Positions 12,045-37,900 of a stretch of 41,173 nt of DNA are shown piece by piece. Origin of the DNA: a virus; the IMG/VR virus record IMGVR_UViG_3300025118_000041, positions 1 through 41,173 of that record; one strand, given 5' to 3'. Within the stretch, counting starts at the first letter, position 1, and each line of letters begins with the position of its first letter. A model generated the notes under the pieces. It worked only from the letters and a program-made list of their open reading frames with translations, did no database searches and was not told the origin of the DNA. The position numbers and the translations under genes were made by a program.

Positions 12045-12064
12045 CAATTTAAAACAAATTAAAA

Positions 12065-13618: not shown

Positions 13619-13630
13619 TCATTATATTTT

Positions 13631-14524: not shown

Positions 14525-14530
14525 TCTAAC

Positions 14531-14568: not shown

Positions 14569-14581
14569 AAAATTTAATTAT

Positions 14582-14743
14582 ATGAAAAAATCTAAAGGAT
14601 TAGGCGACTCAATAGAAAAAATTACAAAAGCAACTGGAATTAAAAAAGTTGTTGATACAGTTAGTAAGATAACTAAAAAACCTTGTAACTGTGGAGAAAG
14701 GAAAGATACTTTAAATAGATTGTTTCCTTATAATAATAAATAA
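14582..14743 (+). CDS. 53-aa basic protein with CNC motif
   Basis: The ATG at 14582 is preferred to an in-frame TTG inside the hairpin at 14558. The product is MKKSKGLGDSIEKITKATGI followed by an amphipathic helix (KKVVDTVSKITKK), a Cys-Asn-Cys pair and a conserved-looking ending RKDTLNRLFPYNNK. I have an impression of GLGDxIEKxTKATGIKK...ERxxxLNxLFPY as a recurring short family in Bacteroidota phages, but I know no function. The two cysteines could bind metal in a dimer or form a disulfide. Located between the neck candidate and the connector protein, it may be a small virion component or DNA-binding peptide. Confidence 0.65.
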   Translation: MKKSKGLGDSIEKITKATGIKKVVDTVSKITKKPCNCGERKDTLNRLFPYNNK

Positions 14744-14751
14744 AAGAAATT

Positions 14752-15423
14752 ATGGTTAGTATAGATACGGTATATCAAAAAGTTTTAGCATTTGCTAATA
14801 AAGAGCAAAGAGGTTATATAACGCCTCAAGAGTTCAATCTATTTGCTGACCAAGCACAAATGGAAATATTTGAACAATATTTTTATGATTTAAACCAACA
14901 TCAAAGAATTCATGGTAGCTCCGAAGAATATAGCGATATGTCACATAATTTAAATGAAAAGATTGCTTTTTTTGAAAGTGTCGCCGCTGTAACTCAAGGA
15001 GGATCAATAACCGCTACTGATTTGTATAGACTAGGTACTGTTGTTAACGCTATTGGCGTGGAAGTTGAAGAAGTGCAACAAAACGAACTTTTATATCTAA
15101 CAAAATCACCTCTTACAATACCAACTGCTAATAGACCTGTATATGTTAGAATAGGACCATTATCATTAAACATGACTCCTGCCGCGCCCGGTAATTGTAC
15201 TTACGTAAGAAAACCATTAAAACCTAGTTGGGGATATGTTGTAGTTAATGGAAAAGCTCTTTACAATCCTTCAACTGTAGTTAATTTCGAGTTACATCCA
15301 GCAGAAGAAAGTGAGTTGGTTTATAAAATATTAAAATTTGCAGGTATTTCAATGAAAAAAGATGATATTGCAAGAGCAGGGCAAGTACAAGAACAATTAC
15401 AAGTTCAACAAGAAAAACAATAA
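14752..15423 (+). CDS. Head-tail connector/adaptor-type virion protein
   Basis: A 223-aa protein. The helical N-terminus (TVYQKVLAFANKEQRGYITPQEFNLFADQAQMEIFEQYFYDLNQ) is a widespread signature in marine phage tail genes. A beta domain follows (GTVVNAIGVEVEEVQQNELLYL, RPVYVRIGPLSLNMTP, GNCTYVRKPLKPSWGYVVVN), and the C-terminus is a Gln-rich helix (GQVQEQLQVQQEKQ). Helical bundle first, then beta elements, precedes the ring protein and nozzle-like gene, the place held by adaptors in podoviruses. The next gene starts 4 nt after the stop. It is probably one layer of the neck; which layer cannot be told. Confidence 0.65.
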   Translation: MVSIDTVYQKVLAFANKEQRGYITPQEFNLFADQAQMEIFEQYFYDLNQHQRIHGSSEEYSDMSHNLNEKIAFFESVAAVTQGGSITATDLYRLGTVVNAIGVEVEEVQQNELLYLTKSPLTIPTANRPVYVRIGPLSLNMTPAAPGNCTYVRKPLKPSWGYVVVNGKALYNPSTVVNFELHPAEESELVYKILKFAGISMKKDDIARAGQVQEQLQVQQEKQ

Positions 15424-15427
15424 ATAA

Positions 15428-16807
15428 ATGGGATTAATAAATCAAACGCAAGAAAGTTATTACGATAGCAATAGTTTTGGGAACTACCAATTTACATCTT
15501 TAAACGATATAGTAAATCAATTTATTATTGCTTACGTGGGTGAGGGCAAAATAATATCTAAAATTAAAAGAACTGATGTTGCTTTTCACGCTCAAAGAGC
15601 GTTACAAGAATTATCTTTTGATACGTTTAAATCCTGTAAAGCACAAGAAATAACGGTACCGGCAACATTACAAATGGCACTTCCTCAGGATTATGTAAAC
15701 TATACTAAAGTTAGCTGGGTAGATTCTGCTGGTGTAAAACGTATATTATATCCTACTAGTAAATCTTCAAATCCAACAAGTCCTCAAATTGATTCAGATG
15801 GTGATTTAATGTTTGAAAGTAGTGGAGATTTAATATCTTCTGGCAATATGTTGGGTGGAGAAACTTTTGAAGGTGGTCCAAATAATTGGAATTTAAATGT
15901 TACCGCTAGAGATGGAGGAGCTCAAACAGGTATATTAATTAACTCAAATACTGGAGCAACTGGTCAAACAGATAACAACTTTACTACTTCTGTTGGTTGG
16001 CTTTGGCATAATAATAAATTAAAACTTTTTAATTCTGTTGGTAATAACGCTATAAGACAAACTAACGTGCCAATATATAGTGGTGAAACATATACACTTA
16101 CATTTACTATAAGCGATTATGTTGCTGGAAATTATACTTGGTATCTTGTAGATGAAGACGGTAAAAGATTTACAGGCACTACTGTTTCCGCTAATGGTAC
16201 GTATACACAAACTATTGACATGTCAACAGGTACTTTTCCAAACGCAACTTGGGGACCTCAAACTATAGCTTTTAGAAACGATAATACTGGTACTGGAACT
16301 GATAGTATTACTTTAGATAACGTTTCTTTAGTGAGAGTTGGTGATGAGGAAACATCTGCTGCTTGGAGCGGTTACAAGTCCAATGTTCCATCGGAAAATA
16401 ATAATGACGATTACGAAGATGATACATACTGGCCTATCGCTGGAAATAGATACGGATTAGATCCTCAACATGCCCAGGCTAATGGTTCGTTTTATATAGA
16501 TTGCATTTCTGGAAAAATACATTTTAGTTCTAATATTTCTGGTAAAAGCGTAATATTAGATTATATAAGTGATAGTCTTGGGACGGACGAAGAAATGCAA
16601 GTTCATAAATTTGCAGAAGAAGCTATGTATAAATGGATTGCTTACGCAATATTATCTACAAGGGGAAATACGCAAGAATATATAGTTCGAAGATATAAAC
16701 AAGAAAGATTTGCGGCTATTAGAAACGCAAAACTAAGACTATCTAATATTAAATTAGAAGAAATTACTCAAATTTTAAGAGGCAAATCAAAACAAATAAA
16801 ACACTAG
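15428..16807 (+). CDS. Ring/adaptor protein with inserted beta-sandwich domain
   Basis: A 459-aa protein with a conserved backbone in two parts: residues 20-130 (FTSLNDIVNQFIIAYVGEGKI, RTDVAFHAQRALQELSFDTF, LPQDYVNYTKVSWVDSAG) and 307-459 (RYGLDPQHAQANGSFYIDCISG, SVILDYISDSLG, MQVHKFAEEAMYKWIAYAIL, NIKLEEITQILRGKSKQIKH). The helical ends plus central strands suit a T7 gp11-type or crAss-like ring protein of the neck. Between them, about residues 136-305, lies a beta-sandwich of the carbohydrate-binding-module type: ETFEGGPNNWNL, SGETYTLTFTISDY and DSITLDNVSLVRV are hallmark strands of CBM4/9-like domains. The insert probably projects from the neck and could bind glycans. The backbone call is by family memory; the insert by motif. 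Confidence 0.7.
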   Translation: MGLINQTQESYYDSNSFGNYQFTSLNDIVNQFIIAYVGEGKIISKIKRTDVAFHAQRALQELSFDTFKSCKAQEITVPATLQMALPQDYVNYTKVSWVDSAGVKRILYPTSKSSNPTSPQIDSDGDLMFESSGDLISSGNMLGGETFEGGPNNWNLNVTARDGGAQTGILINSNTGATGQTDNNFTTSVGWLWHNNKLKLFNSVGNNAIRQTNVPIYSGETYTLTFTISDYVAGNYTWYLVDEDGKRFTGTTVSANGTYTQTIDMSTGTFPNATWGPQTIAFRNDNTGTGTDSITLDNVSLVRVGDEETSAAWSGYKSNVPSENNNDDYEDDTYWPIAGNRYGLDPQHAQANGSFYIDCISGKIHFSSNISGKSVILDYISDSLGTDEEMQVHKFAEEAMYKWIAYAILSTRGNTQEYIVRRYKQERFAAIRNAKLRLSNIKLEEITQILRGKSKQIKH

Positions 16808-16810: not shown

Positions 16811-19800
16811 ATGCCAGAGATTAAGAATCAGTTTACCGGTGGTAAAATGAACAAGGATGTAGACGAAAGACTTGTTCCCAAAGGTGAATATAAAGATGCT
16901 ATGAATATACAAGTATCGACCTCAGAAGGATCTGATGTTGGTACTATTCAAAATATATTAGGAAATTTACCTGGATGCACTGCTGACTATATACAAAGCG
17001 GATCTTATACAGTGGGATCCATAGCTGATGAAAAAAATGATTCTTTATATTGGCTTGTTTCGGGTTCTGAAAACGTATCTGGACAAAGCTTGTTAGTTGA
17101 TGAAGATATTAGTTTTAAAGACATGATAATACGTCATGATGTCTCAGGGCAAACTTGTCAACCTGTCTTTGTTGATAAATATAAGTTTTGTATTGGTTTA
17201 TCAGGTCTTAGTGGAGTAGGAAATTCTATAATACTACCAGATAGTGATTTACTTTCGCAAATTGTAAATGGTATGAATGCTACTGGATATGGCAATAATA
17301 ATGTTATATTTGGACCAACACCAATAAATGGTATTGGAGCTGTAACTATGCTACCTCTTAATTACCAATCTGAAGCTATACCTGACCCTGGTGTTCCCTT
17401 TACGCCACCAGATATTCCTATTGGAGATATAAATAATACTAATATGTATATTAGAGGTTTTTGGGATGATACTACTAGTAAATATACTAATATTCATTAC
17501 GACCAATCTGTTGATACTACATTCGCGCCAATATCACAAGCAAATCTACCTCCAGATGGTGCGTCTCAATTCTGGATACCAGCTTCAGATTTACCAGCGC
17601 CACATAATATAACACCAGGTAGTCAAATTCAAAGCGTTTTAGCTCAATCTTATTATGGATGTCCAGGAGGGGGGAATTGCAACGCAAATGTTTTAAATGG
17701 ATTTGGCCACGTAACGGTTTATGATATTGTTTTAGGGCAAGTAACAAGTCATTTAGGAATCCCTATCCAAGCGTGGATAATAACCGTTGGAATTCCAGGC
17801 GGGCAGTATGACGGTGGTATAAATAGAGTTCATTATTGTTGGAGTGATCAAAGTGGAAATCAATATGGTTGTAGTTGGATGACTGGTATATGGCAAAAAG
17901 ATGCAAGTATTCTTGCTGGTTACCAAAACGCAGAGGCTTTTCCTTTTTATGAATTAGAAACTAATATTGCCCCAATTACTTTCACTCAATATACATATAC
18001 AGTAACTAATGTTATAAATATAGAACCTACTTCATCCGGGTGGTTAGATGAGGTTTACAATGTACTTTTTGATGAAAATGGTCAACCTACTGGTAGCGCA
18101 CTACAGATTACGTCTACAGGTGGTGGAAGTAATTTTCCACCTAACTCATGTATTGATCCTAACAGCGTTATTGACGCGGTTGGTTTTGATCCGGCAACAG
18201 GAAGTTATGATAATGAATTTGAAATAATTGATTGTAGTACCGGTGTAGCAATACCGGATGGGGTAATACTTCAAAATACTAACGGAGATCCTATTACTTT
18301 ATGGATAATTGGAGACGCTCTTGATGCTATTATACTAAGTGAAGATGTTGATTTCACCGGTGTAGATACTGTTTGTTTTGAATCAGACAGAATTTTAAAC
18401 TTTGACCAAAACAGATTAATTACTGGTATCGATATTATTGATGACATGTTATTTTGGACAGATAATTTTTCTGAACCAAAGAAAATAAACATATCACGAA
18501 GTATACAAGGTACAGATCCTTCGGGCGAAATACACACAGCTGTTATTAATCAAGATGCGGGATATAATTTAACGCCTAATTACAATCCTATTAAAGAAGA
18601 ACATATTACGGTTATTAAAAAAACGCCTAAAAATGCGTTGAATTTAGAACTTAGCGACGGTAGAGATCCTTCGTTAAGCTATGCAGGAATAACAGGCGTA
18701 GGATTAGATACAGCCACATCATCAATAATAAACTCTTCTAATCCTGCTGTGCAATATGATTTTTCAACTTTATCAATTGGAGATACTGTTAGTTTTTATA
18801 TACAAACAGATTATGATGGCTTAACGCAAATGGATTTTGCCTGGGAAGAAGGTGGTTATTTATTGTTAAGAGAATTTAATGAGGGTCCTCCCGCTTCCGC
18901 TCCAAACGTGCCTCTTGCTAATTGGACAATAAGAGGTTTGATAACAGAATGGCAATCTAATAAATTTGAGAATATTACAGGGGGCCTTGTTCAAGTGCAA
19001 ATACAAGTTGTGGGTTTAAATGGAACTCCATTAGATCCAGATCCAAATAATTTAGGAGGCTCGTTATATTATGTTGTTGATTACGAAGATACAGACCCCG
19101 TTATATTTGAAGATAAACTACCAAGATTTTCTTATAGGTATAAATATGAAGACGGTGAATATTCTACTTTTGCACCGTGGTCTGAAGTTGCGTTTTTACC
19201 TACTGGATTTGATTACGAACCAAAAAGGGGTTGGAATACTGGTATGTTAAATAATCTTAAATCTATAAAAGTTAAAGGTTTTAAACCAACAACTGCAATA
19301 TTACCAACAGGTAGAGATGTGGTTGAGATAGATATACTTTATAAAGAAGATACCTCTCCAAACGTATATCTTGTTCAATCTATTAGTCCTGTAGATATAC
19401 TTCCTGCTGGAATTTCTCAACTACCTTGGTATTCTGGTGAATATATAATAAAATCAGAAACAATAAAAGCCACGCTTCCCTCTAATCAACTTTTACGACC
19501 ATGGGATAACGTTCCTAAAAAAGCATTAGCACAAAGTATTAGTGGTAATAGAATGATATATGCTAATTACGAGCAAAATTATGATTTAAAAGTTAACGGT
19601 CAGAGTTACAAGCCAGACTTTAAAAATAGTTTAACTGCTTGGACAGCACCAATTCTTGGTGTTCCTGAAAAATCAATTAAATCTTTAAGAGATTACAAGT
19701 TAGGAGTTGTTTTCACAGATAAATACGGTAGAGAAACTCCAGTTTTAATTAGTGAAAATGGTGGTTTTAAAGTAGAGAAAAAAGATTCTTTAAACGCAAA

Positions 19801-22800
19801 TAGATTAAAAGTTGGATTAAGAGGTAGTGTGCCGCCAGAAATGACTTATTATAAGTTTTATATAAAAGAAACTTCTAGTGAGTATTATAACTTAGCTATG
19901 GATCGTTGGTATAATGCAGAGGATGGTAATCTGTGGTTGGCATTTCCATCTTCTGATAGAAACAAAGTAGACTTAGATACTTCTTTATATTTTAAAAGAG
20001 GAGTTGATGGGGATGAAAACGTTTTTGAAAACTCTACAAGATATAAAGTTTTAGCTATAGAAAACGAAGCTCCTGAATTTATTAAAACTAGAAGAATACG
20101 TATAGGTACAGTAGCACATTATGCGGGTACAAACCAGCTTTTTGGTAACACAACAGATAATCTTAGTGATGCTCCACGGGTAACCGGTGTGTCTTTTAAA
20201 ATGAATTATTATGATTTTTTTGGGACTAGTCTTTCTAAAATGGAAGATATCAAAGAAGATATATATATACAGTTTGTTAGTTCAGGTGATTATTCTAGTC
20301 AATATAAAGTTTCAGAGATAACATCTGACTTTGACGCAACAGCTACTCCAGCTGCCACCAACCCAGGCGAATACCATGTAACTCTCGACACTAATCTTAA
20401 AGATGATATAAACTTTATATTTGATGATGCTTCTGGGGCAAATTTTATACTAGATGACACTAAAGTTGTATTTACAAAAGCCGTTGTAGAAAATAAACCA
20501 AAGTTTGATGGTAGATTTTTTGCTAAAATTGAAAATGATGGTAAAATACAAACACAAATAACAGATGATTCCGTTGGCGTAAACTATTTAGAAGTAACAT
20601 CAAAAAAAGTTTATCTTTTAGAAGATGATTCCCAGCTTAAGGATATATCTAGAATAGCAGTTACGACACCAGGGATAAGTTTAGTGCAATTTGATTACAG
20701 TGGATATCAGTTTACTGGTGGTTACATGGATGGAAATACTGAAATGGATATTGAAAATCCTGGCGGTATTAACCAAAATTACCATGCCGCTAGAAACGCT
20801 TATTTTCAATTAGGAAGAGATTTTGAATCATGGGATTATTCAAATCCAGGTGGTGGTGGTGGTTTTAGTAATATTGAAGACTGGCACCATTGGACTAATA
20901 AATTATTTTATCCTGAGATGATAAATGAAAATTGGGCGGACAAGGGGTATAAAAGTGAAATCGACCAATCCCAAGTAGGGGTATGGTTTATAGATAGATC
21001 AACTAAAAAATACTCACTAAGTACGTCTGGCCCTGATGATAATGCGTTAGTTTGGCCAGGTGATTCGGATATTTGGCCATCTTCTTATGGTCCGCATAAC
21101 ATGAACCACGTTTCACCCGCATGTAATTTTGCAACTAATTCTGTACTAGGGGGATGCGGTTTTACAGGAGCAGCATGGTTTGATGACACTGGTGGTGGTA
21201 TCACACACACATCTACACATTCTCTAATAGATTTAGGTTTTGGAGGTTTTGGAGGGATAGAAAATTGGGCCGCTGATCTTAGTAATGATTTCGGTGATTG
21301 TGGTATAAACGGTTATGATTTAGATGACTCTATCACTGATACGGATAATTATTTTGGTGTTGGAAATGGTAATACTAATTGGAACGATTCACAGACGACT
21401 AAATTTGTTGAAGCATTAAGTGCTGGTTTTACTTTTAGATGGAGAGAGGATCCAACAGAAACGATATATAAAATTGAGGGACAGACTTCATACCAGAAAA
21501 ACTATCGTTTTGGTAGAGTTGATGATGGATTTTGTAATAATAGAACTCACCTAACCGGCGCCTTGTCATCTTACACTAAAACATTTAGTATAAAAGTAAC
21601 TCCATCTATGGTTGGATGGGATCCAGCAGCACCTCCAGGTACGTACATGACTAATGGGCTACATTTAGGTAACGGAGTGTTTCACGACACATTAGTGGTA
21701 ACCGGTATAACAGGTTCGCCATCCAGTCCCGCAAGTGTTTCAAGTGGCGACGCCACTATGATGTTACAAGACGTAAGTTCTATAAAAGTAGGTATGTCCG
21801 CGGGTACAAATACCAATATTCCTTTAGCTTCAAAAGTTGTTTCTGTAGATCCACTGACTAACATTATTGTATTAGACTTAGGCACAACCGGTACTATTGC
21901 TGCTGGTACTACGCTTTCGTTTGGATTTACAATAAGAATAGTATCTGCACACATGTATGGTATAGCTGGTAACCTTATACTTCCAAGAGAAAATTATATA
22001 ATAGTTGATAGGAAAACAACAGAATGTAGTAATGGGAATACTTTAAAACCCACATATACTCTTCATAAAGGAATGAAGCTTGATATGTATAATTTAGATA
22101 GCTCAAGCGATATTGCGGGGGATATGTGCATAAAAGAAATAGATGAGCATCCTAATGGATGGAAACTTACAATGGGTGGATATAACGGGCCAATAAATTA
22201 CTGGGGCGGTAGTGGTGGTGGAAATCTTAGTGTTAATTTTGCCGCGGATAATAGAATGGTTTTCAAGCAAGTATCTATGAATGGGGCAAGTAATTTTACG
22301 GAAGCCAACACTGATTTAGGCCAAGTAAATGCACCTCACCTTGAGGGATATCCTTCTTTTGCGTTAGGGCGACTATGTGCTGTTGGTTATGATATGGTAA
22401 TATTGGAACCTGTTGACGAATATAGTGACGGAGGAAATTTACCAGAAAATCCTTTTGTTTGGGAGACGGAACCTAAAGAAGATACTGATCTAGATATTTA
22501 CTATGAGATAAGTGAAAATAACCCAACCAAACTAAGTAGAGATACTATTAATACAGCAATACCGATAAATTCTATAGTAACGAGTAATTCTGGAGAAGGT
22601 GGAACATGGAATAATGTAACGGTAGTATTTAATTCATCTGCATCTGGACAGGAGATAGGTATATCCGAACTTATGTGGGTTGGTCCTGGTCTCGCGCCTA
22701 ATGGTACGTATCCATTAGAAGTGGGTAGTATTTTGCAAATAACAAAACCTAATGGCGTAGTATTCAGCGTAGAAATTGAGGAAATATTCCCATATGCTTC

Positions 22801-25800
22801 TTTTATGCTGAATGCTTCTAATCGATTCAAACTTAAGAATAGTTTACATCGTAGCAATTATCATTTAAATTGGCATAATTGTTATTCTTTTGGAAATGGT
22901 GTTGAATCTAATAGAATTAAAGATACTTTTAACTCACCTTTTATATCAAATGGAGTTAAAGTATCATCGACACTGGGGGAGGACTACAATCATGAACATA
23001 GAAAAAGCGGATTAATTTACTCTGGAATATACAATTCAACTTCTGGCGTTAATAATTTAAATCAATTTATAGCAGCTGAAAAAATAACTAAAGATATAAA
23101 TCCTATTTACGGTAGTATTCAAAAGTTACAAGCTGGATGGGGACAGGCTGGTGATTTAATAGCTCTTTGCGAGGATAGAATATTAAAAATACTAGCCAAT
23201 AAAGATGCTTTGTTTAACGCCGATGGAAACACTAACATTACTGCTACAAATAAGGTTTTAGGAACTGCGACTCCTTATTCGGGAGAATATGGAATATCTA
23301 AAAATCCAGAGTCATTTGCTTCAGAAGCCTATAGAGCATATTTTACTGATAAAGTTAGGGGCGCTGTAATGAGATTATCTATGGACGGTTTAACCGCTAT
23401 ATCCGATCACGGTATGAAAGATTGGTTTAGAAAAAATTTAAAATTAAGCAATAGATTAATTGGTAGTTATGATGATAAAAAAGATGAATATAATATAACT
23501 TTACCTGATGTAAATAAAACTGTTTCATTTAAAGAAGATGTAAGAGGTTGGGTTAGTTTTAAATCTTTTGTACCTGAAAATGGTATTAGTTGTGCTAATG
23601 AATATTTTACTTTTAAACAAGGAGAAATATGGAAGCATCATGACGAAACTCCATATTTACCTGGATCTGGAAATAGAAATACTTTTTACGGAACATTTTC
23701 TAATAGTGATTGGTCTAGTTTTACCGCTATTTTAAACGAAGCCCCTGGTAGCATTAAGACTTTTCATACTTTAAATTATGAGGGCACGCAGTCAAAAATA
23801 GACGCTTTAACAAATTATAATATATATATTCCAGGTACGGCTAACGCTCAAACTGGCACGCCTGGAGTTGTAGATGTAAATTATCCATTAGGAATATCTG
23901 ATGGTGAGTATTATAATTTAACAGCAAAGGAGGGTTGGTATGTTGAAGATATTCACACGGATTTAGAATCAGGTGGTTTAAATGAATTTATAGAAAAAGA
24001 AGGTAAGTGGTTTAATTATATAAAAGGTAAAGTAGGAAGCGTTACTGATGGTGGTAATATTATCAGTGGTTTTGACAATGCTGATTTTTCATTTCAAGGT
24101 CTAGGCATGATGGTGACAGCACCTACTATAAGCAGCGCATTTGGATGTACTGATGATTCAACTGGTACTACCCCTAGCGGAGTTGTATATAATATTTATG
24201 TTAATTATGATCCATTGGCGCAGGCAAATGATGGTTCTTGTATGTTAGCTGTACTTGGGTGCACTGATCCAAATGCGGATAATTATGATTGTGCAACTGC
24301 GGTTAACTCAAATTCAACATCGCCTTGTAGTGATTTTGTAACTGTAGATGATGGTTCTTGTAATATTTATGGTTGCTTAGACTCTAACGCTAACAATACA
24401 AATCTAACAGCGACGGTACATGATCAATCGCAGTGCACTTATGATATTTATGGCTGTATGAACTCAGACGAGTGGAATCAAAATTTACAAACTGGTAGTA
24501 TTTTAAATTACGATCCGCTTGCTACAGTTCCTTGTAATGGAATTAATGGTAATTACCCTAATTATACTCCAATTCCTTGTGAGCTAGATGATACAGAGTT
24601 AGGAACATATCAAACTGGGCTTGGAATTTCAGGACTTGGATGCTGTTGTCAGATTGCAATTCCTGGTTGTATGGATCCTACTGCAAGTAATTTTAACGAA
24701 TACGCTACTGTTTCATGTATTGGTTGTTGTTTATTTAATTTTCCAGGATGTACAATTAGTACGGCTTGTAATTATGATAACACAGCTAATAATAATGACG
24801 GTTCATGTACTTTTTGTAACGATCCTCTTGCTAATAACTTTGATGGTTATGACACTGATGGCGTAACCCCACTAGCTACTTGTGATATTGGTTGTGTTTA
24901 TTGCATGGCTCCTACAAATTTAGTAGTAGCTATTCCAGAGGCTCCAATAAGTCAGCAAACAAATGTAAATATAGTAATGGATACGCCACTTGTACCACCA
25001 GGTGCTCAAATAAGTAGTTTTACTGTTGAATATTCTAGTGATGGTGGCGCTACATTTACCACGTTTACTAATACTTGGGTTCCTTATGGAATCAACTCAT
25101 CAACAGGAACTATAGGTGTTTTTCTACAAATTAGTGGTTTAACAGCTGGCACAGACTATACGTTTCGAGTAACCTCAAATTGTAGTGCTGGGACATCATT
25201 ATTAAATCCAACTTGGAGTACTACTTCATCTACTACGGTTACAGGTAGCACCTCGCCTCCACCGCCACCTGGGTGTACTGATCCTTTAGCATGTAATTAT
25301 GATAACACGCCTGGGTTAGTAGATGATGGTTCTTGTATAGATGCTGTTAATTGCACAGGCTGTGGAACTATTGGTTATGATGAGTTTTGTGATACTTGTT
25401 GGGACCCAATATTATTAGTCGCGGTACCTCCTAACACTGTTGGTGGTGGCCCTTATGTATTTACAGATGGAGCGCTTTGTCAAACTCCAAATCTTGGTGG
25501 TTGTATGACTCAAGGTGCGTCAAATTATGATTCGACGGCCACATTTGATGATGGTTCGTGTTATTATGATATTTTTGGATGTTCTGATCCATTAGGAATA
25601 AATTATAACTCAGCTGTAACTATTGATGATGGGAGTTGTTTATACTGCGAGTATGGGTGTACAGATCCATTAGCATTCTTATACAGTCCAACCGCAACAT
25701 GTGATAATCAAACGTGTTTACATCCTGGATGTACAGATCCTACTGCTGATAATTACGGATGGGGTAATGTTCCTGGTGATGGCACAAACCCAAACCCTTG

Positions 25801-26926
25801 GCCAGCTAATTTTGCATACCCAGGAAATAACCAAATTGATTTTGGCGCAGGTACATTTCAGTATACAACTGCCACTGGTTATGAAGATAACTCATGTACT
25901 TACCCTGCAATTCCAGGTTGTACGTATGGCGATGACAACCCAATGATTCCATATGGCAGCATTTATTCTTCACCAGGGCAGTTATGGAACATGACTGCCC
26001 TCAACTACCCACTAACTTACGCGGTAATTTACGGCCAATATATTTATCCTGGAATGACTGAACCAGCTTATAGCGCTTTAAATTATGATCCTACCGCAAA
26101 CACCGAAGATGGTTCGTGTATGTGGGATTTAAACGTTTTTGGTACAACAGGTTGTACAGATCCTACAGCTATGAATTACAATCAAAATTGGACTAATCCA
26201 GACGATGGTAGTTGTTACGCACTTGAGTTTTTTAATGGTAGTGAGATTGGTAATAACACCACCATGAATTTACAGTTCCCAAATTTTACAGGTAGTAACG
26301 TGTATTGTGATACTAGTACTTGGACAGGTTGCCCAGCGCTCACTGCGCAAAATGACTCTGTGTTTATTATACCTATAGACGCGCTAAGTCAAGATCCAAT
26401 TCTCCTTAGCTCACAATATGCCCAAATGGACTTTTTATCTGAAATTACTTCCACTAACAACTTCCCCGGGCCAATTGATTTTCCAGCACTAAGTGCCCAA
26501 AGTGGAAGCATCAATTATTTAGATTTACAATCTAACGGCTTAAAGCATTTATGGAATATGTTAGGAGAAACAAATCAAACTGGCTTTAAAGATGCTGTGT
26601 TAGCTAATGCTTCTAATACACCAGTTGATGGCACGCCATGGAGTAGAGTGGTTGATATTGAATACTACAGCATGAATACAGCAGAAAATAGATTTTTAGG
26701 AACACATACTTTAACAATAGTACCTGGTTGTATGGATAATAATAACACAAATTTTGCCACTCCTTCTATTATAAACACAACAACTTATGGATCAGATCTA
26801 TCTATAAACGCAATGGATTTAGGTGGACCTTTAGATGACGATACAACACCTTTTGTTGTTAATGGTGTTATGGATGCAACTGTCCCTGGTTGCTGGAATC
26901 CTTGTAATCCACTTGGAGCATGTTAA
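16811..26926 (+). CDS. Giant tail nozzle/muzzle-like protein with Cys-rich repeat tail
   Basis: A 3371-aa protein. The N-terminus KNQFTGGKMNKDVDERLVP ... GEYKDAMNIQVSTSEGSD parallels the start of T7 gp12 (nozzle), where a gene product binds the ring and then marks the 'xN...SxxEG' loop; the same opening is common in marine phage stabilisation/muzzle proteins. Conserved core segments lie near residues 890-1100 (LRPWDNVPKKALAQSISGNR, LGVVFTDKYGRETPVL) and 2085-2300 (DINPIYGSIQKLQAGWGQ, SGEYGISKNPESFASEAYRA, RVNG-free GWVSFKSFVPENG). Middle regions are Gly/Asn/Trp-rich and may hold inserted domains. From residue 2445 the chain becomes Cys-rich repeats with an FnIII-like domain at about 2698-2815, then a last domain ending CWNPCNPLGAC. 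It starts 3 nt after the ring gene. Likely forms the tail tube and receptor-facing tip. Confidence 0.75.
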   Translation: MPEIKNQFTGGKMNKDVDERLVPKGEYKDAMNIQVSTSEGSDVGTIQNILGNLPGCTADYIQSGSYTVGSIADEKNDSLYWLVSGSENVSGQSLLVDEDISFKDMIIRHDVSGQTCQPVFVDKYKFCIGLSGLSGVGNSIILPDSDLLSQIVNGMNATGYGNNNVIFGPTPINGIGAVTMLPLNYQSEAIPDPGVPFTPPDIPIGDINNTNMYIRGFWDDTTSKYTNIHYDQSVDTTFAPISQANLPPDGASQFWIPASDLPAPHNITPGSQIQSVLAQSYYGCPGGGNCNANVLNGFGHVTVYDIVLGQVTSHLGIPIQAWIITVGIPGGQYDGGINRVHYCWSDQSGNQYGCSWMTGIWQKDASILAGYQNAEAFPFYELETNIAPITFTQYTYTVTNVINIEPTSSGWLDEVYNVLFDENGQPTGSALQITSTGGGSNFPPNSCIDPNSVIDAVGFDPATGSYDNEFEIIDCSTGVAIPDGVILQNTNGDPITLWIIGDALDAIILSEDVDFTGVDTVCFESDRILNFDQNRLITGIDIIDDMLFWTDNFSEPKKINISRSIQGTDPSGEIHTAVINQDAGYNLTPNYNPIKEEHITVIKKTPKNALNLELSDGRDPSLSYAGITGVGLDTATSSIINSSNPAVQYDFSTLSIGDTVSFYIQTDYDGLTQMDFAWEEGGYLLLREFNEGPPASAPNVPLANWTIRGLITEWQSNKFENITGGLVQVQIQVVGLNGTPLDPDPNNLGGSLYYVVDYEDTDPVIFEDKLPRFSYRYKYEDGEYSTFAPWSEVAFLPTGFDYEPKRGWNTGMLNNLKSIKVKGFKPTTAILPTGRDVVEIDILYKEDTSPNVYLVQSISPVDILPAGISQLPWYSGEYIIKSETIKATLPSNQLLRPWDNVPKKALAQSISGNRMIYANYEQNYDLKVNGQSYKPDFKNSLTAWTAPILGVPEKSIKSLRDYKLGVVFTDKYGRETPVLISENGGFKVEKKDSLNANRLKVGLRGSVPPEMTYYKFYIKETSSEYYNLAMDRWYNAEDGNLWLAFPSSDRNKVDLDTSLYFKRGVDGDENVFENSTRYKVLAIENEAPEFIKTRRIRIGTVAHYAGTNQLFGNTTDNLSDAPRVTGVSFKMNYYDFFGTSLSKMEDIKEDIYIQFVSSGDYSSQYKVSEITSDFDATATPAATNPGEYHVTLDTNLKDDINFIFDDASGANFILDDTKVVFTKAVVENKPKFDGRFFAKIENDGKIQTQITDDSVGVNYLEVTSKKVYLLEDDSQLKDISRIAVTTPGISLVQFDYSGYQFTGGYMDGNTEMDIENPGGINQNYHAARNAYFQLGRDFESWDYSNPGGGGGFSNIEDWHHWTNKLFYPEMINENWADKGYKSEIDQSQVGVWFIDRSTKKYSLSTSGPDDNALVWPGDSDIWPSSYGPHNMNHVSPACNFATNSVLGGCGFTGAAWFDDTGGGITHTSTHSLIDLGFGGFGGIENWAADLSNDFGDCGINGYDLDDSITDTDNYFGVGNGNTNWNDSQTTKFVEALSAGFTFRWREDPTETIYKIEGQTSYQKNYRFGRVDDGFCNNRTHLTGALSSYTKTFSIKVTPSMVGWDPAAPPGTYMTNGLHLGNGVFHDTLVVTGITGSPSSPASVSSGDATMMLQDVSSIKVGMSAGTNTNIPLASKVVSVDPLTNIIVLDLGTTGTIAAGTTLSFGFTIRIVSAHMYGIAGNLILPRENYIIVDRKTTECSNGNTLKPTYTLHKGMKLDMYNLDSSSDIAGDMCIKEIDEHPNGWKLTMGGYNGPINYWGGSGGGNLSVNFAADNRMVFKQVSMNGASNFTEANTDLGQVNAPHLEGYPSFALGRLCAVGYDMVILEPVDEYSDGGNLPENPFVWETEPKEDTDLDIYYEISENNPTKLSRDTINTAIPINSIVTSNSGEGGTWNNVTVVFNSSASGQEIGISELMWVGPGLAPNGTYPLEVGSILQITKPNGVVFSVEIEEIFPYASFMLNASNRFKLKNSLHRSNYHLNWHNCYSFGNGVESNRIKDTFNSPFISNGVKVSSTLGEDYNHEHRKSGLIYSGIYNSTSGVNNLNQFIAAEKITKDINPIYGSIQKLQAGWGQAGDLIALCEDRILKILANKDALFNADGNTNITATNKVLGTATPYSGEYGISKNPESFASEAYRAYFTDKVRGAVMRLSMDGLTAISDHGMKDWFRKNLKLSNRLIGSYDDKKDEYNITLPDVNKTVSFKEDVRGWVSFKSFVPENGISCANEYFTFKQGEIWKHHDETPYLPGSGNRNTFYGTFSNSDWSSFTAILNEAPGSIKTFHTLNYEGTQSKIDALTNYNIYIPGTANAQTGTPGVVDVNYPLGISDGEYYNLTAKEGWYVEDIHTDLESGGLNEFIEKEGKWFNYIKGKVGSVTDGGNIISGFDNADFSFQGLGMMVTAPTISSAFGCTDDSTGTTPSGVVYNIYVNYDPLAQANDGSCMLAVLGCTDPNADNYDCATAVNSNSTSPCSDFVTVDDGSCNIYGCLDSNANNTNLTATVHDQSQCTYDIYGCMNSDEWNQNLQTGSILNYDPLATVPCNGINGNYPNYTPIPCELDDTELGTYQTGLGISGLGCCCQIAIPGCMDPTASNFNEYATVSCIGCCLFNFPGCTISTACNYDNTANNNDGSCTFCNDPLANNFDGYDTDGVTPLATCDIGCVYCMAPTNLVVAIPEAPISQQTNVNIVMDTPLVPPGAQISSFTVEYSSDGGATFTTFTNTWVPYGINSSTGTIGVFLQISGLTAGTDYTFRVTSNCSAGTSLLNPTWSTTSSTTVTGSTSPPPPPGCTDPLACNYDNTPGLVDDGSCIDAVNCTGCGTIGYDEFCDTCWDPILLVAVPPNTVGGGPYVFTDGALCQTPNLGGCMTQGASNYDSTATFDDGSCYYDIFGCSDPLGINYNSAVTIDDGSCLYCEYGCTDPLAFLYSPTATCDNQTCLHPGCTDPTADNYGWGNVPGDGTNPNPWPANFAYPGNNQIDFGAGTFQYTTATGYEDNSCTYPAIPGCTYGDDNPMIPYGSIYSSPGQLWNMTALNYPLTYAVIYGQYIYPGMTEPAYSALNYDPTANTEDGSCMWDLNVFGTTGCTDPTAMNYNQNWTNPDDGSCYALEFFNGSEIGNNTTMNLQFPNFTGSNVYCDTSTWTGCPALTAQNDSVFIIPIDALSQDPILLSSQYAQMDFLSEITSTNNFPGPIDFPALSAQSGSINYLDLQSNGLKHLWNMLGETNQTGFKDAVLANASNTPVDGTPWSRVVDIEYYSMNTAENRFLGTHTLTIVPGCMDNNNTNFATPSIINTTTYGSDLSINAMDLGGPLDDDTTPFVVNGVMDATVPGCWNPCNPLGAC
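21735..21935 (+). repeat. Beta module shared with the 600-aa tail protein
   Basis: This segment of the giant protein encodes SSGDATMMLQDVSSIKVGM ... SVDPLTNIIVLDLGTTG ... AGTTLSFGF. The same plan (V-x-V-G-D/M, then T-x-V-x-x-x-x-P-x-T, then a strand and G-x-T-L-T/S-F) recurs in the neighbouring tail gene at about 28100-28310 and, more loosely, 28810-29015. It is a recognisable small beta repeat of phage tail proteins and likely moved between genes. Confidence 0.55.
24143..26229 (+). repeat. About 15 Cys-rich GCTDPxAxNYD...DDGSC repeat units
   Basis: In-frame protein repeats of the giant tail gene, residues 2445 to about 3139. Best units: GCTDPLACNYDNTPGLVDDG (25273), GCMTQGASNYDSTATFDDG (25501), GCSDPLGINYNSAVTIDDG (25579), GCTDPLAFLYSPTAT (25657) and GCTDPTAMNYNQNW (26150). 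Earlier units near 24143, 24259, 24370, 24450, 24664 and 24748 are more divergent, and several carry long inserts between the NYD and DGSC ends. An FnIII-like domain (about 24900-25250; ISGLTAGTDYTFRVTSNC) and a proline hinge (SPPPPPGC) interrupt the array. The repeats are diverged at DNA level, so they are old or under selection. Such units are typical of Flavobacteriia extracellular proteins. Confidence 0.85.
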
Positions 26927-26957: not shown

Positions 26958-27311
26958 ATGCAAGTAGCCACTCTTACTTTTGCGAATGATTTAAATTCTA
27001 GTCTTCAAATAGGTGATATAGTATACTATTCCTCTCTTGGATCTTCTGGTGGATTTTCAACTTCAACAGTTCAACTAACTACAATGTTTGGCGTTGTTAT
27101 TAGTATAGGTGCTAATACCGTTATGGTTTCTTATGATGAAACTGTAGTTTCACCTCCATTAGTTACTGATTATATTTCTTTTGAAAAAGACAAACAAGTA
27201 AATTCATCTAGTATAATAGGGTATTATGCTGAGGCAACATTTAAAAATAACTCCCGAGATAAAGTAGAATTGTTTGCAATTGGTTCAGAAATTTCAGAAA
27301 GTAGTAAATAA
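26958..27311 (+). CDS. Small tail-associated protein, unknown function
   Basis: A 117-aa beta-rich protein following the giant tail gene after 31 nt of A/T leader. Segments: VATLTFANDLNSSLQIGDIVYY, a Ser/Thr-rich loop (SSLGSSGGFSTSTVQ), FGVVISIGANTVMVSYDETVV, then YISFEKDKQVNSSSIIGYYA and EATFKNNSRDKVELFAIGSEISESSK. The SFEKDKQVNxSSxxGYYAxxxFxNxSxxKxELFxxGSEISxSSK end looks like a conserved phage family to me, without a known role. No catalytic residues stand out. Position between nozzle-like and beta-rich tail genes suggests a small tail component. Confidence 0.6.
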   Translation: MQVATLTFANDLNSSLQIGDIVYYSSLGSSGGFSTSTVQLTTMFGVVISIGANTVMVSYDETVVSPPLVTDYISFEKDKQVNSSSIIGYYAEATFKNNSRDKVELFAIGSEISESSK

Positions 27312-30492: not shown

Positions 30493-31893
30493 ATGGTAAT
30501 AAATTTAGGAGGTAGTGTTGATACGCAATTAGTACAAGGTGCTAAAGAAATATCTAGACATAAATATCATGATCCTGGGACTGAAGTAGATAGAACTACC
30601 GCTGTGGTTGGATCTAGCGTTGGAGCTGTAGTTGATGGCGTATTAACTATTTTTAATAAAAAACAAAGTTTAGAAGCAGAACACGATAAAAGAGTGAGTG
30701 AATTTCAAGATATTGCCGCTGAATGTCATGATAAACTAGCAAATCAAAACGAACCTTTACCACAAAAAGTAGTCGACGCTGTAGAAGGAGAGATTAATAG
30801 ATTACAAGGTGAGTACGAGAAAGTAAACGTTGTAGGTAAAGGAGACTCAAGGGAAAAAGAAAGAGCTAGAACTAAAATTATGGCTGAGTTAACTAGAGTT
30901 ACTAATCAAGCTATATCTACTAGGGCGGATTTTATGAAGATGGGACAGAGCTCTGGTAATTGGAATACTGCTTTAATAAAAAAAGGAGATATAGATCCAA
31001 TAAAATCTATTCTTAATATAGATGGTATGGATAAAAATGATAATATTTCTGCTAGATTTATAGATGGAAAATTAACATTTACAACAAGTAATTATAGTAC
31101 TGGTGGTGGTTTGCCTGCTTTTCAAAGTATAATGGGAGAGGCGGCTACACAAGAAGATATGGAGGCGTGGAAAAGCCAAACGCCAGAATGGGAGGATAAA
31201 CTTGCAGCTTCATATGGCGCTCCTATTTCTTTTACCTCAAACCAAATGGCCAAAGCTATACGAACTAAAAACCTAGATAACGATAGTATGGTTTTAGATG
31301 GTCAAATGGATTTTATCAAGCAGGGTAAAAACGATGGTAAAAATAGTAATCGTAATTATTTTCGTAACGATGATGGTAGTCTCGATGAATATGCCTATAA
31401 TGAAACTAAAGCAGCTTTTGCCGGAAACATCGCGGATGAAAAACAATTTCAAGACATGGCTACTAGGCGTATGTCTAAGCTGGGTGCACCTAGTTTTAAA
31501 ATGGGGTTAATAAAAAATATGAATATTCCAATACAAGTGCTTGATAATATGTTCATAGGTGAAGGCGGAAACCGAGTGCATTTTGCAGATGTGTTTGCTA
31601 GTATGGATTCCACTGGACCAAATGGAGAACCTGATGGATTTATAACAGCAGAAGACTTGGTTGATTATGAAGGTGGACAAACCGATTTTGAGAAAAACAT
31701 CGATGAGATAATAAATGCCTTAACAGACATTGAGCATCCAGCATTTAATTTTGAAACTTCTAAAGACATGTTAGCAGATTATTACACTAACTTTAAAATG
31801 CAAGCGTATGAGCATAAATATTACGCTAGTGGTGGAAAAAAGACTTGGGAAGAAAGCGAAGAAAAAGGCGAGGAGATAGATGACATTACCTAA
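30493..31893 (+). CDS. Putative ejection protein, T7 gp15-like by position
   Basis: A 466-aa protein. Residues 30-135 include a small hydrophobic stretch (VVGSSVGAVVDGVLTIF) and long charged helices (KKQSLEAEHDKRVSEFQDIA, DAVEGEINRLQGEYEKVN). Residues 150-260 are mixed, with a beta segment (NISARFIDGKLTFTTSNY). Later helices contain TKAAFAGNIADEKQFQDMA. At residues 377-388, NGEPDGFITAED fits the calcium-binding loop of EF-hand or dockerin motifs (N1, E3, D5, G6, I8, D12). The acidic C-terminus (EESEEKGEEIDDIT) is only 14 nt from the next gene. It would be the middle member of an ejected protein set; no enzyme signature is seen. Confidence 0.6.
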   Translation: MVINLGGSVDTQLVQGAKEISRHKYHDPGTEVDRTTAVVGSSVGAVVDGVLTIFNKKQSLEAEHDKRVSEFQDIAAECHDKLANQNEPLPQKVVDAVEGEINRLQGEYEKVNVVGKGDSREKERARTKIMAELTRVTNQAISTRADFMKMGQSSGNWNTALIKKGDIDPIKSILNIDGMDKNDNISARFIDGKLTFTTSNYSTGGGLPAFQSIMGEAATQEDMEAWKSQTPEWEDKLAASYGAPISFTSNQMAKAIRTKNLDNDSMVLDGQMDFIKQGKNDGKNSNRNYFRNDDGSLDEYAYNETKAAFAGNIADEKQFQDMATRRMSKLGAPSFKMGLIKNMNIPIQVLDNMFIGEGGNRVHFADVFASMDSTGPNGEPDGFITAEDLVDYEGGQTDFEKNIDEIINALTDIEHPAFNFETSKDMLADYYTNFKMQAYEHKYYASGGKKTWEESEEKGEEIDDIT

Positions 31894-31907: not shown

Positions 31908-34900
31908 ATGAGCGAAGTATTTATAGATAATAAATATCAAGGTGGTTTTGTTGGAGATTTAGAAACTTTAACAAGTCAATTTCAACGTGGAGATATAAAC
32001 AATCCGTTAGATGAGCAGGATATTGCGGCGTTAGAGTCTTCTCAAAAAAATATTGATTTAATTATAGACAATAAAATACCACTAACTGATGAAGCTAAAT
32101 TTCAGTTAAACAGCTTGTTAAAATTTCACGACGAAGATTATGTCAATAAATTCAGATCTACTTATTTTACTCCAGAAGAAGTTGACTCGCTTTCAGTATC
32201 ACAACCTAGTTCAGAAATTACACCAAATGCTCACGAACGACTGTGGAAAGCGTTAGCGGATAAAGAGCTTTATAGTGGTGATTACAATAAATTTAAAGAA
32301 CAATTTTCTAAACCAGAAACACAAGAAAGATTATTCAAATCTCTTAAAGCTAAAAAATTATATAGTAAATCTGCCGGGGATTTCATGAACACATTTTTTC
32401 CAGCGGTTGATGAGCTCAAAGAAGAAGCTATTGAAGAAGTAAAAACCGAAGAAGTGGAAACTACAAAAGTACCACCTGGTTTATCAGGATCGTATTATGA
32501 AAAGCCTAAAAATTCTGAAGAAGTACAGCAATCTTTATTTAATATAAGAGATAATATTGATGGTAAAAATGAAATGGTTATCAACGGAACAGTTGAAGAG
32601 TATTTTAAAAAACCATTAAAAGGTTTCGATAAGTGGTTAGAAGATAACAATAAACAAACAATGAAAAAAGTTTGGAATCCAAGGATTAAAGGTTATCAAT
32701 ACGAAGGCGAGCCATTAACAAAATCTAAAAGAGAAGAATATTTAAAAGAGTATTTAGATAGATTTAGCGAAACTAGATACGATGAATATATAGAGTGGGC
32801 AAAAGGTGATGGAACACAAAATCTTCCTGTTGATAACGAAGATTATAAGAAAATACTAAACGAGCAAATAGAAAAAAGATCTAAGCAGGCGCAAGAGGAA
32901 TATTTGAGAGGTGTTCCTCAAAAGTTAAGACAGGATGCTTTAATTATGATGCCAGATATTTTTGGTGGAGCTATGAATCTTCAAGTTGAAGCTGAAAGTA
33001 ATGCTGATGTTGAAGAATGGAATGAGTTATACAATCCTAATGGCGATAATCCTTTAAGAGGTTTTAAACAAAGAAGAGCTAAGGGTAGAGATGGTGAATG
33101 GAAATTATTTACTCCTCCAATGGGTGAGGCTGGATCATTAGACGCGGGTAATAAAAAATATGATGAAAATTTAAAACTGCAAGAAAATTATATAAAAACA
33201 ACTTATGATAAATATATAGCTGATGCAAAGGCCTATGAAGATAGCGTTACCGCATGGAATAATAAAAATAATAAGTTTACAACCGAGCTTAATAACCTTG
33301 AGGCTGATTTCAAAAAACTTGGAAGCGTAACTAAAGATTCATCTAAACAATCTATAGAAGCTCATAACGCTTTAGTTAGAAAACATGAAGATTTAATGAG
33401 TCGTATGAAAGCCGCGGGACTTGATGAAAAAAGAAGCGTTGAGTTAACAAATCTACAAACATCTTTAAAACAAAGATATGATGATTTAATGGATAAATCA
33501 GAAAAGTTCCAAGATATATCATTAGCTTCAGCTGCTCTAGGTTTAAACTATAGCTTTGGTGAAAGACTTGCTTTAAATCTTGAATCTTCTTTGGCTGATA
33601 TAGGTGTTTTAGCTACAGGAACAATGTCCGCTTTAGCAGAAGCTAGTAGATTACTACCTGGTGATCAGCAAGAAATGGAATTTTACAAGCATATAAATGA
33701 TACCTATAAAGCTTCTATAAATTATAATGAAAGCGTAAAGAATGAAATGCAAACGTCTTTACCTGAATCAATTACTTGGGAGACTAGAAAAGGAAACTAT
33801 GGTGCTTATATAGCTGATATGTTTGCTAATAACTCCGCTAGTATTTTAACAGCTATTGGATCTGGTGGTTTTGGCGCGTTAGCAACAAGAGGTATGGTAA
33901 AGGCGGGTGCTAAAGGAGCTCAATTAGTTGCACAACAACAAGCAGCTATGCAAGTAAGGAAAAAACTAATGAAAGCACCTATGGCTATTTTCTTTGGTTT
34001 AGAAGGTGGGGCTAAGCTAGCAGATATGGAAATATCAAAAAAGAACGCTCCAAAAGCAATAGCATTTTTCAACCAAGAGCTTAAAAGAACAGATTTAACT
34101 CCTGCTGAAAGAGAAGAAATATTACAATTAAAAGATGAGCAAGAAAAAGCATTAAATATAAATCAATTTCAAAAAGCGTTTTCTACAATTGCTTATGGTG
34201 GTATAGCTATGTATGCTGAAAGATTTGGTACGTTAAGTTATGTTAACGGATTAAATCGCTTTGCCAAGACGACTGCTATTGAAGGTGTTGGAAAGAAAAT
34301 GCTTTATGGTAGCGCTAATAAAATATTTAACGTTGGTATTGAACTTTTTGAAGAAACAGCCACTCAACTGGGACATAACTTAATTGATATAACTCTTTTA
34401 GATCAAGATAAATCTATGATAGATGGTATTGATACTGATTTTCTTGTTAATGTAGCTTTTTCATCTTTAGCAATTCAAGGTCCAAGTATGGGTATGAATT
34501 CTTGGAATACTATAAAGGGAGAGGTTCAAAGTAGACAAGACAGAATTAAATCTGATAAACTAGCTGCGGAATTAAGCGATATACAATTAGTGTTAAACCA
34601 AAGTGTAGATTTAACTACTGCAGAAAGAAAAGAATTAGTAAAAAGAAAAAGAGAAATATTAAAAGAAGCTGCTCTTCAAGATGTTGTTAGTATGCAGCGT
34701 GTTTCCAGAATGGATTCTCAAGAAGTAACAGAGCTATTTGAAATAAATAGAGAAAATAGAAAAGATATAAAGCTATTAAGAGAGCTTGGTATATCTGGTG
34801 AAGAAGTTGATGCTATTAAAAAAAGAAAAGAAGAAATAGTTAATAGAATAAATAAAAGAAACGAAAAAAGAGAAACTTTATTATCAAGAGACGACCAAAG

Positions 34901-37900
34901 AAGAAGAGCTAAGTTAAAAAAGTTTCAAGAAAAAGGACAAATTACAGATGGTAAGTTAATAACTGATTTAAGTGGTAAGGATATAGCTCAAGATCTAAAA
35001 ACTGGTAAGATTGTTGGTACTCAAGAATATCTTGATCCAGACGCTGAATTTTGGTTAGCTAGGCATGAGTATAATGAAGGTATTGCTAGGGGATTAGGTA
35101 ATAGTGTGCTTAAGTTTGAAGGTGAAAATGCTAGAGAAAACGTTGTTAAATATTTAGACAATAAAGTTAAATCAGATATAACTTTAGAAGACGGTACTAT
35201 TTACACTGTTGAGCAACAAAAAGCAGATATTTTAGAGGGATATGATGATGGTGCCTATGGTACTAGTATTGGTAATGATGCTATATTATTTGAAAATAAT
35301 ATTATGACAGGTATTGGTGCTGGTGGATTTGCGGCTAAAATGGCAGCAACAACAGCGCTGCACGAGCTTTTACACATTCAAAATAGAAAAGCTGGCATTG
35401 TTAAAGATAGCAAAGTTGTTGAGGAAGCTAGAACAGCAGTTGATGAAATTAGAAACAGAATAAATGAATTAGCTGAACTTGGAGAAATAAACAAAAAAGA
35501 TAAAATTGCAATTGACAAAAGAATAGCATCTTATGATGGTATGACTGGCGTTGCGTTAGAAGAATTAATTAATTTAGCTGGTGATTTAAAAGCAGCGGGA
35601 ATTATGGGTAGAGAATCTGTATCTTTAGGTTTTGCTTTTAAATCGTTTTTAAACAGTGTTATAGAATCATATAATAAAATACCAAAATTAAAAAATCTAT
35701 CTACATTTTTTATGTTTGAAGATGTAGATGATGTACTTAGATATATAGATAGTTTTCAAGGTAAACTTGCGGAGGGTAAAATTGTTATACCGCCAGAGGA
35801 AGAAATAGGAGAAGATATTAGAGAATCTAAAGCAGTAACTCCACTTGAAGCTATTAACGATTTATTACCTAAAGATATTAAAACTAATGAGGATTATAAT
35901 AATTTCTTACAAGATCCTAGACGTTTTAGAGCTGTTTTTGAAGCTACAGTTGGTGATGGTGTTATTAGTAATTATGTTAAGTCAAAAGCTATAGGCGATG
36001 AATATAATGACGCTATTGAATCTGTTAGGGATAGATTAATTAATTTTAAACCCGAAGCAGAAAGAGCTGATGGAACAATTGTTGGTAAAAAAGGTTTTGG
36101 AGAATTTATATTTGCTAATACTAGATTTGGTAAGTTAGATGCTAAAAAAGCTTTAGCTATTAAAGCTGAAGAAACAAAAAGAACCAAAAGCATAGACACA
36201 AAAGAAGCTAGACAAATTGAAGATACCTCAACAGAAACTACTGATAGAGGTCCTGATACACGTAGAAAGAAAACAAATATTCTTAAAATTGGTAAGGTTG
36301 AAGGAAAAGCAGATGCTATAAGAAAAATAGTTAAAGTTAAACCAGGAGATACATTTAAAGAAGTTAGTGATAATAATACTGGAAAAGTTGCTGAAGAAAT
36401 ATTTGATGTACCAGCTAAAAAAATTACTGATCCAAAGAAAAACTTAACTTACGCTAAAAAAATAAAAGACGGTATACCAGAACCATCTGAAGCTGGTAAT
36501 ATACAAACTTTCTACGGAGACACTCAAACCGCGGAAAAGCTTATAAAAATACTACCTACAGAAAATGTTACTAGTAGCGATGCTGATATAAACGAAGTAG
36601 GAGAAAATATTGATGTTGATAGAGAAGTTTTAGGTCGAGGTTTAGGTTTAACTAATAGAATGTTAAACTACTTTTATAATAAAACAAATAGAAGATCTAA
36701 AGGTAAAAAATCACAACCTTTTATATGGGAATTAAAACCTGAGTTTAAAAACCCAACAGCTGAGGTTGTTGAACAGCTACAAAAAGATTTAGGTATAACG
36801 CCCCGTGGCGAATTAAACAATTATAATAGAAACATTGGACAACTGCTAAAAGGTGTGGCTAAATTTCAAGCTCAACAAACAGCTTTATCTACGGCTCAAA
36901 GAATTTTAACAGAACAAAAAGCTCCTAAAAAACAAATAGCTAGCGTTACAGCTGCGCAAAGTAAAGTTGCTTTTAGTAAAGCTGTAGATGTGGGTATTTT
37001 AAATAACGGTGTAGTTGAGCAAGAGTTTGAAATGGATGATATAACCCACATAGACAAACTACTTAAAATAAATAATCAAAAAGGTATATTTAGACATAGG
37101 ACATCGAACGAAATTGATAATTGGTTTGATGTTTTTGAAAAAGATATAATAGCTAATATGCCTGAATCTGTTTTACCAAAAAGTAGACTAAATACTATTT
37201 TAAGACCTAGTAAAAGAATTTTTGCTGGCAAAAAGTTTGGCCTAGAAGGCAAGGGTCAAGACAAAATAACAATTACAAAAGGCGAGTATAAAGGTCAAGA
37301 AATGACCATAGATGATTATTATAAAATAAAAAGAAAAGAACTTTTAGCAAAAGATTTAAAATATGGTCCACCATTTAAAGGTGAAGGAGCTAATTATACA
37401 TACGGAAAAACATATGCGGATCTTTTTGGTAAAACTGAACAAGAAATAAAAGAATCATTTGACAATGGCACTGTAGATGCTCAAAACAAGATAAATCTTA
37501 GTATGCACAAGCAAATGTGGGAAAGAATAGATAAATCTATTAAAGACACTAAAGGTAAGTCTCTTAGAGCTTGGGGTAGTTGGTTAAGTATGGTTGGTCA
37601 AGACACAGAGCATCCTCATAGAATGGGTGCTGAGTTATTAGGATATTCTAAAAATCCAAAAGGAGTTAAAAATAAAAAAGGAAAAGTAAAGCTTTACGAA
37701 TGGGAACATGCTATGCCCGCAACAAGAGCTTATTTATATTTATTGCATAACGCAGTTGATAAAAATCTTGATTTTAATACTTCTTATGGTCTTGTTTCTA
37801 ATAACTTTAAATTAATAGCTTTAGATGCTGCTGAAGATTTAAAACTAAAAGCAGCAGGTAGAACAACAAGCATGGGTCAAGATTGGAGTATAATAACAGA

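Follow-up and report, generated by a model that had tools for sequence, protein, structure and literature searches.

The window, i.e. the whole 41,173-nt stretch of viral DNA analyzed here (IMG/VR record IMGVR_UViG_3300025118_000041, positions 1 to 41,173), contains on its plus strand an ORF of 3371 aa (16811-26926; nt 24143 corresponds to residue 2445), followed by a short ORF of 117 aa (Table 1). The profile HMM analysis matched the long ORF to the Pfam family crAss_MUZ (PF25731) above the cut-off (E=1.4e-10, 40.4 bits versus a cut-off of 27); a PHROG of virion structural proteins also matches its core, and crAss_MUZ_C (PF25729) gave a sub-threshold match (20.1 bits, compared with 66-72 bits in cultured relatives). 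By these sequence criteria the ORF is a crassvirus-type muzzle (tail-tip) protein. An earlier note on this DNA had correctly recognized a conserved tail core but called the protein a "nozzle", for which "crassvirus muzzle" is the better name, given the crAss_MUZ match above the cut-off. The core is closed by a conserved EKEGKWFNYIKG ... FSFQGLG strand and is followed by 939 aa, in good agreement with the same note, which had placed the core end near residue 2400 with about 900 residues beyond it.

The gene order of the window fits the crassvirus type (terminase, portal, capsid, ring proteins, muzzle, giant RNA-polymerase-like ORF), where the terminase, the portal and several virion structural proteins are named by PHROGs and the ring, capsid and RNA-polymerase roles are assigned by position only. 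Around the muzzle this order parallels that of elemoC (Elemovirus), phi38:1 (Pervagoviridae) and crAss001. Among annotated genomes, the closest are Podoviridae sp. ctfjg026 (63.5% identity in the terminase) and elemo-group Flavobacterium phages (45%). The giant virion protein, RNA-polymerase-like by position, is a 3001-aa ORF (31908-40913) whose last 28 residues weakly match the DUF5763 and GvpO N-terminal models, and models of type III secretion translocon proteins (SctB2, SseD) weakly match a 466-aa ORF (30493-31893), probably by chance. The window also encodes homologs of GroEL (1-1251, cut by the window edge; phrog_5725, E=8e-94) and GroES (5301-5882; phrog_13932, E=8e-15).

Table 1. Features of the putative split muzzle and its arm (positions in the window; residues of the 3371-aa ORF unless stated otherwise)
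Feature	Residues	Position	Strand	Support
Muzzle core	1-2432	16811..24106	+	crAss_MUZ; crAss_MUZ_C (weak); phrog_14478; phrog_18548 positions 2-96
Arm (Cys-rich units, FnIII, hinge, orphan tip)	2433-3371	24107..26923	+	core-frame
Units 1-4, partly degenerate	2445-2477, 2483-2517, 2521-2538, 2548-2573	24143..24529	+	unit HMM
Units 5-6, then CxxC segment	2619-2634, 2646-2666	24665..24808	+	unit HMM; alignment
Fibronectin type III (FnIII) domain	about 2701-2815	24911..25255	+	Pfam, AF2, Foldseek
Proline hinge PPPPP	2816-2820	25256..25270	+	
Units 7-11	2821-2842, 2897-2917, 2923-2943, 2949-2969, 2973-2982	25271..25756	+	unit HMM
Units 12-13	3088-3103, 3114-3135	26072..26215	+	unit HMM
Orphan tip	3136-3371	26216..26923	+	no detected relative; AF2 pLDDT about 30
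Severed muzzle C-terminal "GD" domain, SLQIGDxxY ... GYYAEATFKNNSRDKVELFAIGSEISESSK	117 aa, separate ORF	26958..27311	+	HMM E=8e-35; alignment

The 117-aa ORF starts 31 nt past the muzzle stop, in another frame, and several stops lie between the two ORFs. The HMM that identified it was built from fused relatives devoid of an arm. In these relatives (e.g. L033, L038, L040, L050, L057, L070), as well as in elemoC and phi38:1, the muzzle core runs straight into a domain of ~110 aa with the pattern SLQIGDxIY ... GYYAxxxFxNNS ... ELFAVxSEITESSK. Independent evidence comes from phrog_18548, which is matched at positions 2-96 by the end of the core and at positions 186-238 by the 117-aa ORF; this shared family shows that the two derive from one ancestral protein. 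The arm sits at the FQGxG/GD junction, where the muzzle is cut into two genes. A profile search of the PDB reported only chance matches for the C-terminal domain and none for the core end, and no description of split muzzles was found in the open-access literature. The gene split and the severed domain lie just outside the region considered in the earlier note, which missed them.

The arm features a Cys-rich unit of 21 residues (GCTDP/DDGSC), with Cys at positions 2 and 21, NY at 9-10 and DDGS at 17-20; the consensus of 239 exact 21-mers is G-C-T-D-P-x-A-x-N-Y-[DN]-x-x-A-[TN]-x-D-D-G-S-C. The unit HMM, which is slightly circular in that it was trained on relatives together with the window's own units, reported 13 units above 5 bits within residues 2445-3135, 12 of them at 12-30 bits, while the top score among 200 shuffles of the 927-aa region was 7.8 bits. 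Nine places in the arm end with a recognizable [DEN]..[ST]C motif, so that the previous count of about 15 GCTDP...DDGSC units was a fair estimate. The unit HMM detected no units in the other ORFs of the window. The first 2400 residues of the muzzle ORF contain 20 Cys, compared with 54 in the remainder. Of 526 distinct full units, 521 retain both Cys2 and Cys21, and Asp/Asn residues, which could matter for the Ca binding suggested in the earlier note, are conserved as well. We infer that disulfides would form within each unit, and a disulfide-beaded stalk is a plausible structure for the array; disulfides are present in the tail of the crAss001 virion (PMC10172136). The AF2 model of three consecutive units (residues 2890-2975) has a mean pLDDT of 89.3 and revealed no counterpart in the PDB. 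No Pfam, NCBIfam or PDB family was found for the unit, nor any description of the motif in the open-access literature.

The domain preceding the hinge was matched by Pfam fn3 with an E-value of 1.1e-4, slightly below the curated cut-off. AF2 modeled this region with pLDDT values of about 68-94, and the top Foldseek matches of the model are FnIII domains (titin Fn3-90, E=3e-4). The arm domain is predicted to adopt the FnIII β-sandwich fold, which bears out the FnIII-like domain proposed in the earlier note, and the proline hinge proposed there is found as an uninterrupted PPPPP. Of the Cys-rich end described in the same note less is left: Cys residues do occur there, but merely four in the last 65 residues. 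The AF2 model of the whole arm is poor except over the units and the FnIII domain. Searches with the arm gave no match above the cut-off in Pfam, NCBIfam, PHROGs and the PDB, and no match by tblastn in cultured phages and plasmids; for the orphan tip the searches found neither a relative nor a recognized binding domain.

In crAss001, the muzzle forms a ~1 MDa hexamer at the distal end of the tail, where it serves as a gate and probably makes contact with the cell (PMC10172136). The muzzle of the window occupies the same gene place as crAss001 gp44, after the ring genes and before the cargo/RNA-polymerase genes, but comprises 3371 aa instead of 1371 aa and includes the 939-aa Cys-bead arm. Muzzles are reported to vary in length where their crass and IG2 domains have received insertions, with no C-terminal arm or gene split described (PMC10172136). 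A standard crassvirus muzzle is a single chain with its own C-terminal domain, whereas in the window the GD domain is encoded by a separate ORF, and the window protein would accordingly be classified as a split muzzle variant, not a standard crassvirus muzzle. The GD domain was not detected by hhalign in the last 226 residues of crAss001 gp44. The muzzles of elemoC (1493 aa) and phi38:1 (1324 aa) share with the window both the core (31-35% identity) and the GD domain, but in them this domain is fused, and they have neither an arm nor Cys units.

A survey of 109 distinct loci identified the C-terminal domain in 93. It is fused to the core in 11 loci, none of which has an arm, while an in-frame arm with units is present in 61 loci, all with a separate C-terminal gene, which in 57 of them is adjacent (no more than about 35 nt from the muzzle stop). 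Three more loci (L012, L049, L195) carry the repeats in an in-between ORF, again with a separate C-terminal gene, so that in all 64 loci with repeats the C-terminal domain is a gene of its own; 16 loci have other ORFs in between and no repeat arm, and two have another tail without units. These 93 loci do not represent as many independent events, and the AU test does not reject a single clade of fused loci (p 0.58, 0.63). On the trees, the arm state changes about 3-5 times; a scenario of frequent gain and loss (at least 6 changes) was abandoned when better locus labels brought the count down to this range. In the 57 adjacent loci the arm measures 214-1296 aa (median 771) and contains 1-20 units (median 8). 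The frames of the muzzle ORF and the C-terminal ORF vary among loci, which makes one fixed recoding signal unlikely, and in 23 loci the core and the C-terminal domain are far apart, with other ORFs between them.

L012 and L049 appear armless at first sight, their repeat part being encoded by a separate downstream gene, and several other armless muzzles have a different tail or ORF at the junction. The arm of L012 consists of two tandem genes (844 and 849 aa; 11221-13755 and 13811-16360) located between the core and the C-terminal domain. Both begin with an F..FDNADSSFQGLG-like segment. A terminal Lcl_C region scores above the Pfam cut-off in the first gene (E=2.7e-12), and Lcl_C is matched below it in the second. 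FnIII-like domains recur among the arms of relatives. In L073, L074, L079 and L080 the junction is occupied by a different ORF of ~500 aa, in some of them with the motif APPGFHYMPDG; a 722-aa ORF of L018 combines a similar motif with three Cys units. In L009, one Cys unit lies inside the muzzle core (residues 322-342), far from the arm.

The muzzle is also broken at other sites. In gp120 of the cultured Cellulophaga phage phi13:2 (Pachyviridae), the core match ends at position 227 of the core HMM and is followed by an arm of 490 aa with a Big_9/cadherin-like domain (E=4e-21); the core resumes at position 230 in gp121, annotated as a structural protein, which ends with the GD domain. Thus, phi13:2 resembles the window in that a split muzzle carries an adhesion-type arm on its N-terminal piece and the GD domain on its second piece, but the cut is at 227/230 instead of FQGxG/GD and the arm is cadherin-like instead of Cys-beaded. 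The 227/230 cut was also found in ctfjg026, where it is accompanied by a Cys-rich tail and an intervening small ORF, and in the IMG/VR loci L247, L263, L265 and L276. Breakage of the muzzle gene is thus not confined to a single joint, and at least phi13:2 and ctfjg026 have arms attached at the break. It may even be a general habit of marine crassvirus-like phages, a proposition we regard as evenly poised, to break the muzzle recurrently at a small number of fixed joints, attach exchangeable adhesion arms there and complete the muzzle in trans, the arm sometimes being a free subunit or even two tandem paralogs, as in L012. If true, this would amount to a modular docking of host-contact parts on the tail gate, with beads that are those of host surface proteins. 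A further break, at about position 102 of the core HMM, is seen in Maribacter phage Panino (L128), where the ORFs are annotated as virion structural and hypothetical proteins.

Outside the split muzzles, clean units were found in 42 genome loci, which belong to Bacteroidota, mostly marine Flavobacteriales, apart from a few records titled only "bacterium". A three-unit profile matched all 52 genomes of a single family of marine Flavobacteriales (that of G001, a MAG from the FRAM Strait; genome sizes 0.8-2.1 Mb), in up to dozens of places per genome; at the level of the order it matched 67 of 196 genomes, and at that of the phylum 3 of 296. The repeats had been called typical of Flavobacteriia secreted or surface proteins; they are indeed of host type and often occur in exported proteins, but they are no general trait of Flavobacteriia. 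The Flavobacteriales proteins have the same 21-residue unit in tandem, sometimes beside FnIII-like sequence. Many of them (as judged by eye) exhibit signal peptides, lipoprotein signals directly before the unit, or T9SS-like C-terminal tails; they are exported or lipid-anchored, whereas the phage muzzle has neither signal peptide nor sorting tail. Searches with cleaner units taken from L068 also reached virion proteins of cyanophages (Kyanoviridae), namely the baseplate hub/tail lysozyme of S-CAM1 and proteins of S-CAM3, S-RIM44 and AG-345-P14. These are likewise phage structural or baseplate proteins, but they carry only 1-3 units in unrelated proteins, and both tail type and host are unrelated. 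The presence of the unit in cyanophages means that it is not exclusive to phages of Bacteroidota, which weakens a purely host-specific reading.

We propose, with a probability of roughly two in three, that the window encodes a split muzzle bearing a surface-binding arm of disulfide beads, with the GD domain supplied in trans by the 117-aa protein. The sequence shows a modular arm (beads, FnIII, variable tip) at the junction, with the chain stopping at the arm end and the last muzzle domain encoded as a separate protein by the next ORF. In the virion, this protein most likely associates with the muzzle again as its C-terminal domain. There would probably be six muzzle subunits, each with its arm free and directed away from the tail. 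The arm is most likely a flexible, disulfide-stabilized appendage that binds surfaces, in which the beads would act as a spacer or an adhesive stalk. The FnIII and tip parts, which change fast, would most likely contact the surface of a marine Flavobacteriales host with the same beads in its exported proteins. This offers a concrete model for host contact by uncultured ocean phages and for the broken tail-gate gene, and names the 117-aa partner as a protein expected in the virion.

Alternatively, the arm could be a structural spacer or protective whisker, with receptor binding left to separate tail fibers. Such fibers exist in crAss001, docked on hub proteins (PMC10172136); the tip in the window has no recognized binding domain, and some relatives lack any arm. 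However, fast divergence and the exchange of terminal modules (Lcl_C in L012, cadherin-like in phi13:2) fit host contact better, and we consider a mere whisker rather unlikely.

The order of events could also be the reverse, with a C-terminal domain that was ancestrally separate and became fused later in the armless lines. In the sampled clade, the branches that diverge deepest (L072, L051, L030, L034) carry arms or repeats, as this order would have it, but the GD domain is fused in the cultured Elemovirus and in phi38:1, and the outgroup branches of the tree exceed 4 changes per column, leaving the root unsafe; we find late fusion doubtful.

The same deep branches bear on the age of the arm, which the earlier note suggested may be a captured host module serving as a receptor-binding stalk or mimicking host surface polymers. 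Between the window and its relatives, the core is 71-75% identical and the arm 34-37%, and near-identical pairs follow the same trend (L004/L005: core 99.8% versus arm 92.8%). In 27 aligned relatives the arm elements follow one another in the same order (units, CxxC segment, FnIII, units), and the GC3 of the arm (0.22) is like that of the core (0.20). Because of this conserved order, the arms in the deepest lines, the similar GC3 and the identity gap between arm and core, the arm appears to be an old, fast-evolving appendage of the phage clade. Across relatives the extension is patchy and highly divergent, and is not the low-divergence part of all nozzles that the earlier note had pictured as the contrary case. 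Recent capture from Flavobacteriales is quite improbable. It would agree with the abundance of repeat arrays in one host family, often on exported proteins, and with the whole arm scoring equally high against host repeat proteins and phage arms, but the arm-versus-host score is dominated by repeat number, an in-frame arm is shared by 61 loci, and the host family yielded one weak FnIII match and no match of the window tip. The units are too short to tell whether the transfer went from host to phage or the other way. What stands of the receptor-binding stalk of host type is the host-type repeats and the plausibility of a disulfide-beaded stalk, but not its recent capture. The whisker, reversed-order and capture explanations are not mutually exclusive.

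That the split is an artefact of assembly or annotation (a frameshift or false stop in one real chain), as the adjacency of the two ORFs might suggest, is already contradicted by the 57 distinct loci with separate adjacent ORFs in varying frames, the several intervening stops in the window, the 23 loci with distant pieces and the comparable two-gene design of the cultured phi13:2, and can be practically dismissed.

The bead arrays may also serve as a sequence marker that points toward one small-genome marine Flavobacteriales family, that of G001, as a candidate host group. A further, weak hint to the host is a match of portal residues 1-96 of the window (67% identity) at the end of a stretch in a MAG of this family (L299; G305 contig 11, 11442-11729), which co-binning could explain. 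A host protein in G339 (contig 6, 16722-18920) contains more than a dozen bead arrays of equal score within one frame of 2826 aa, which suggests a recent tandem amplification.
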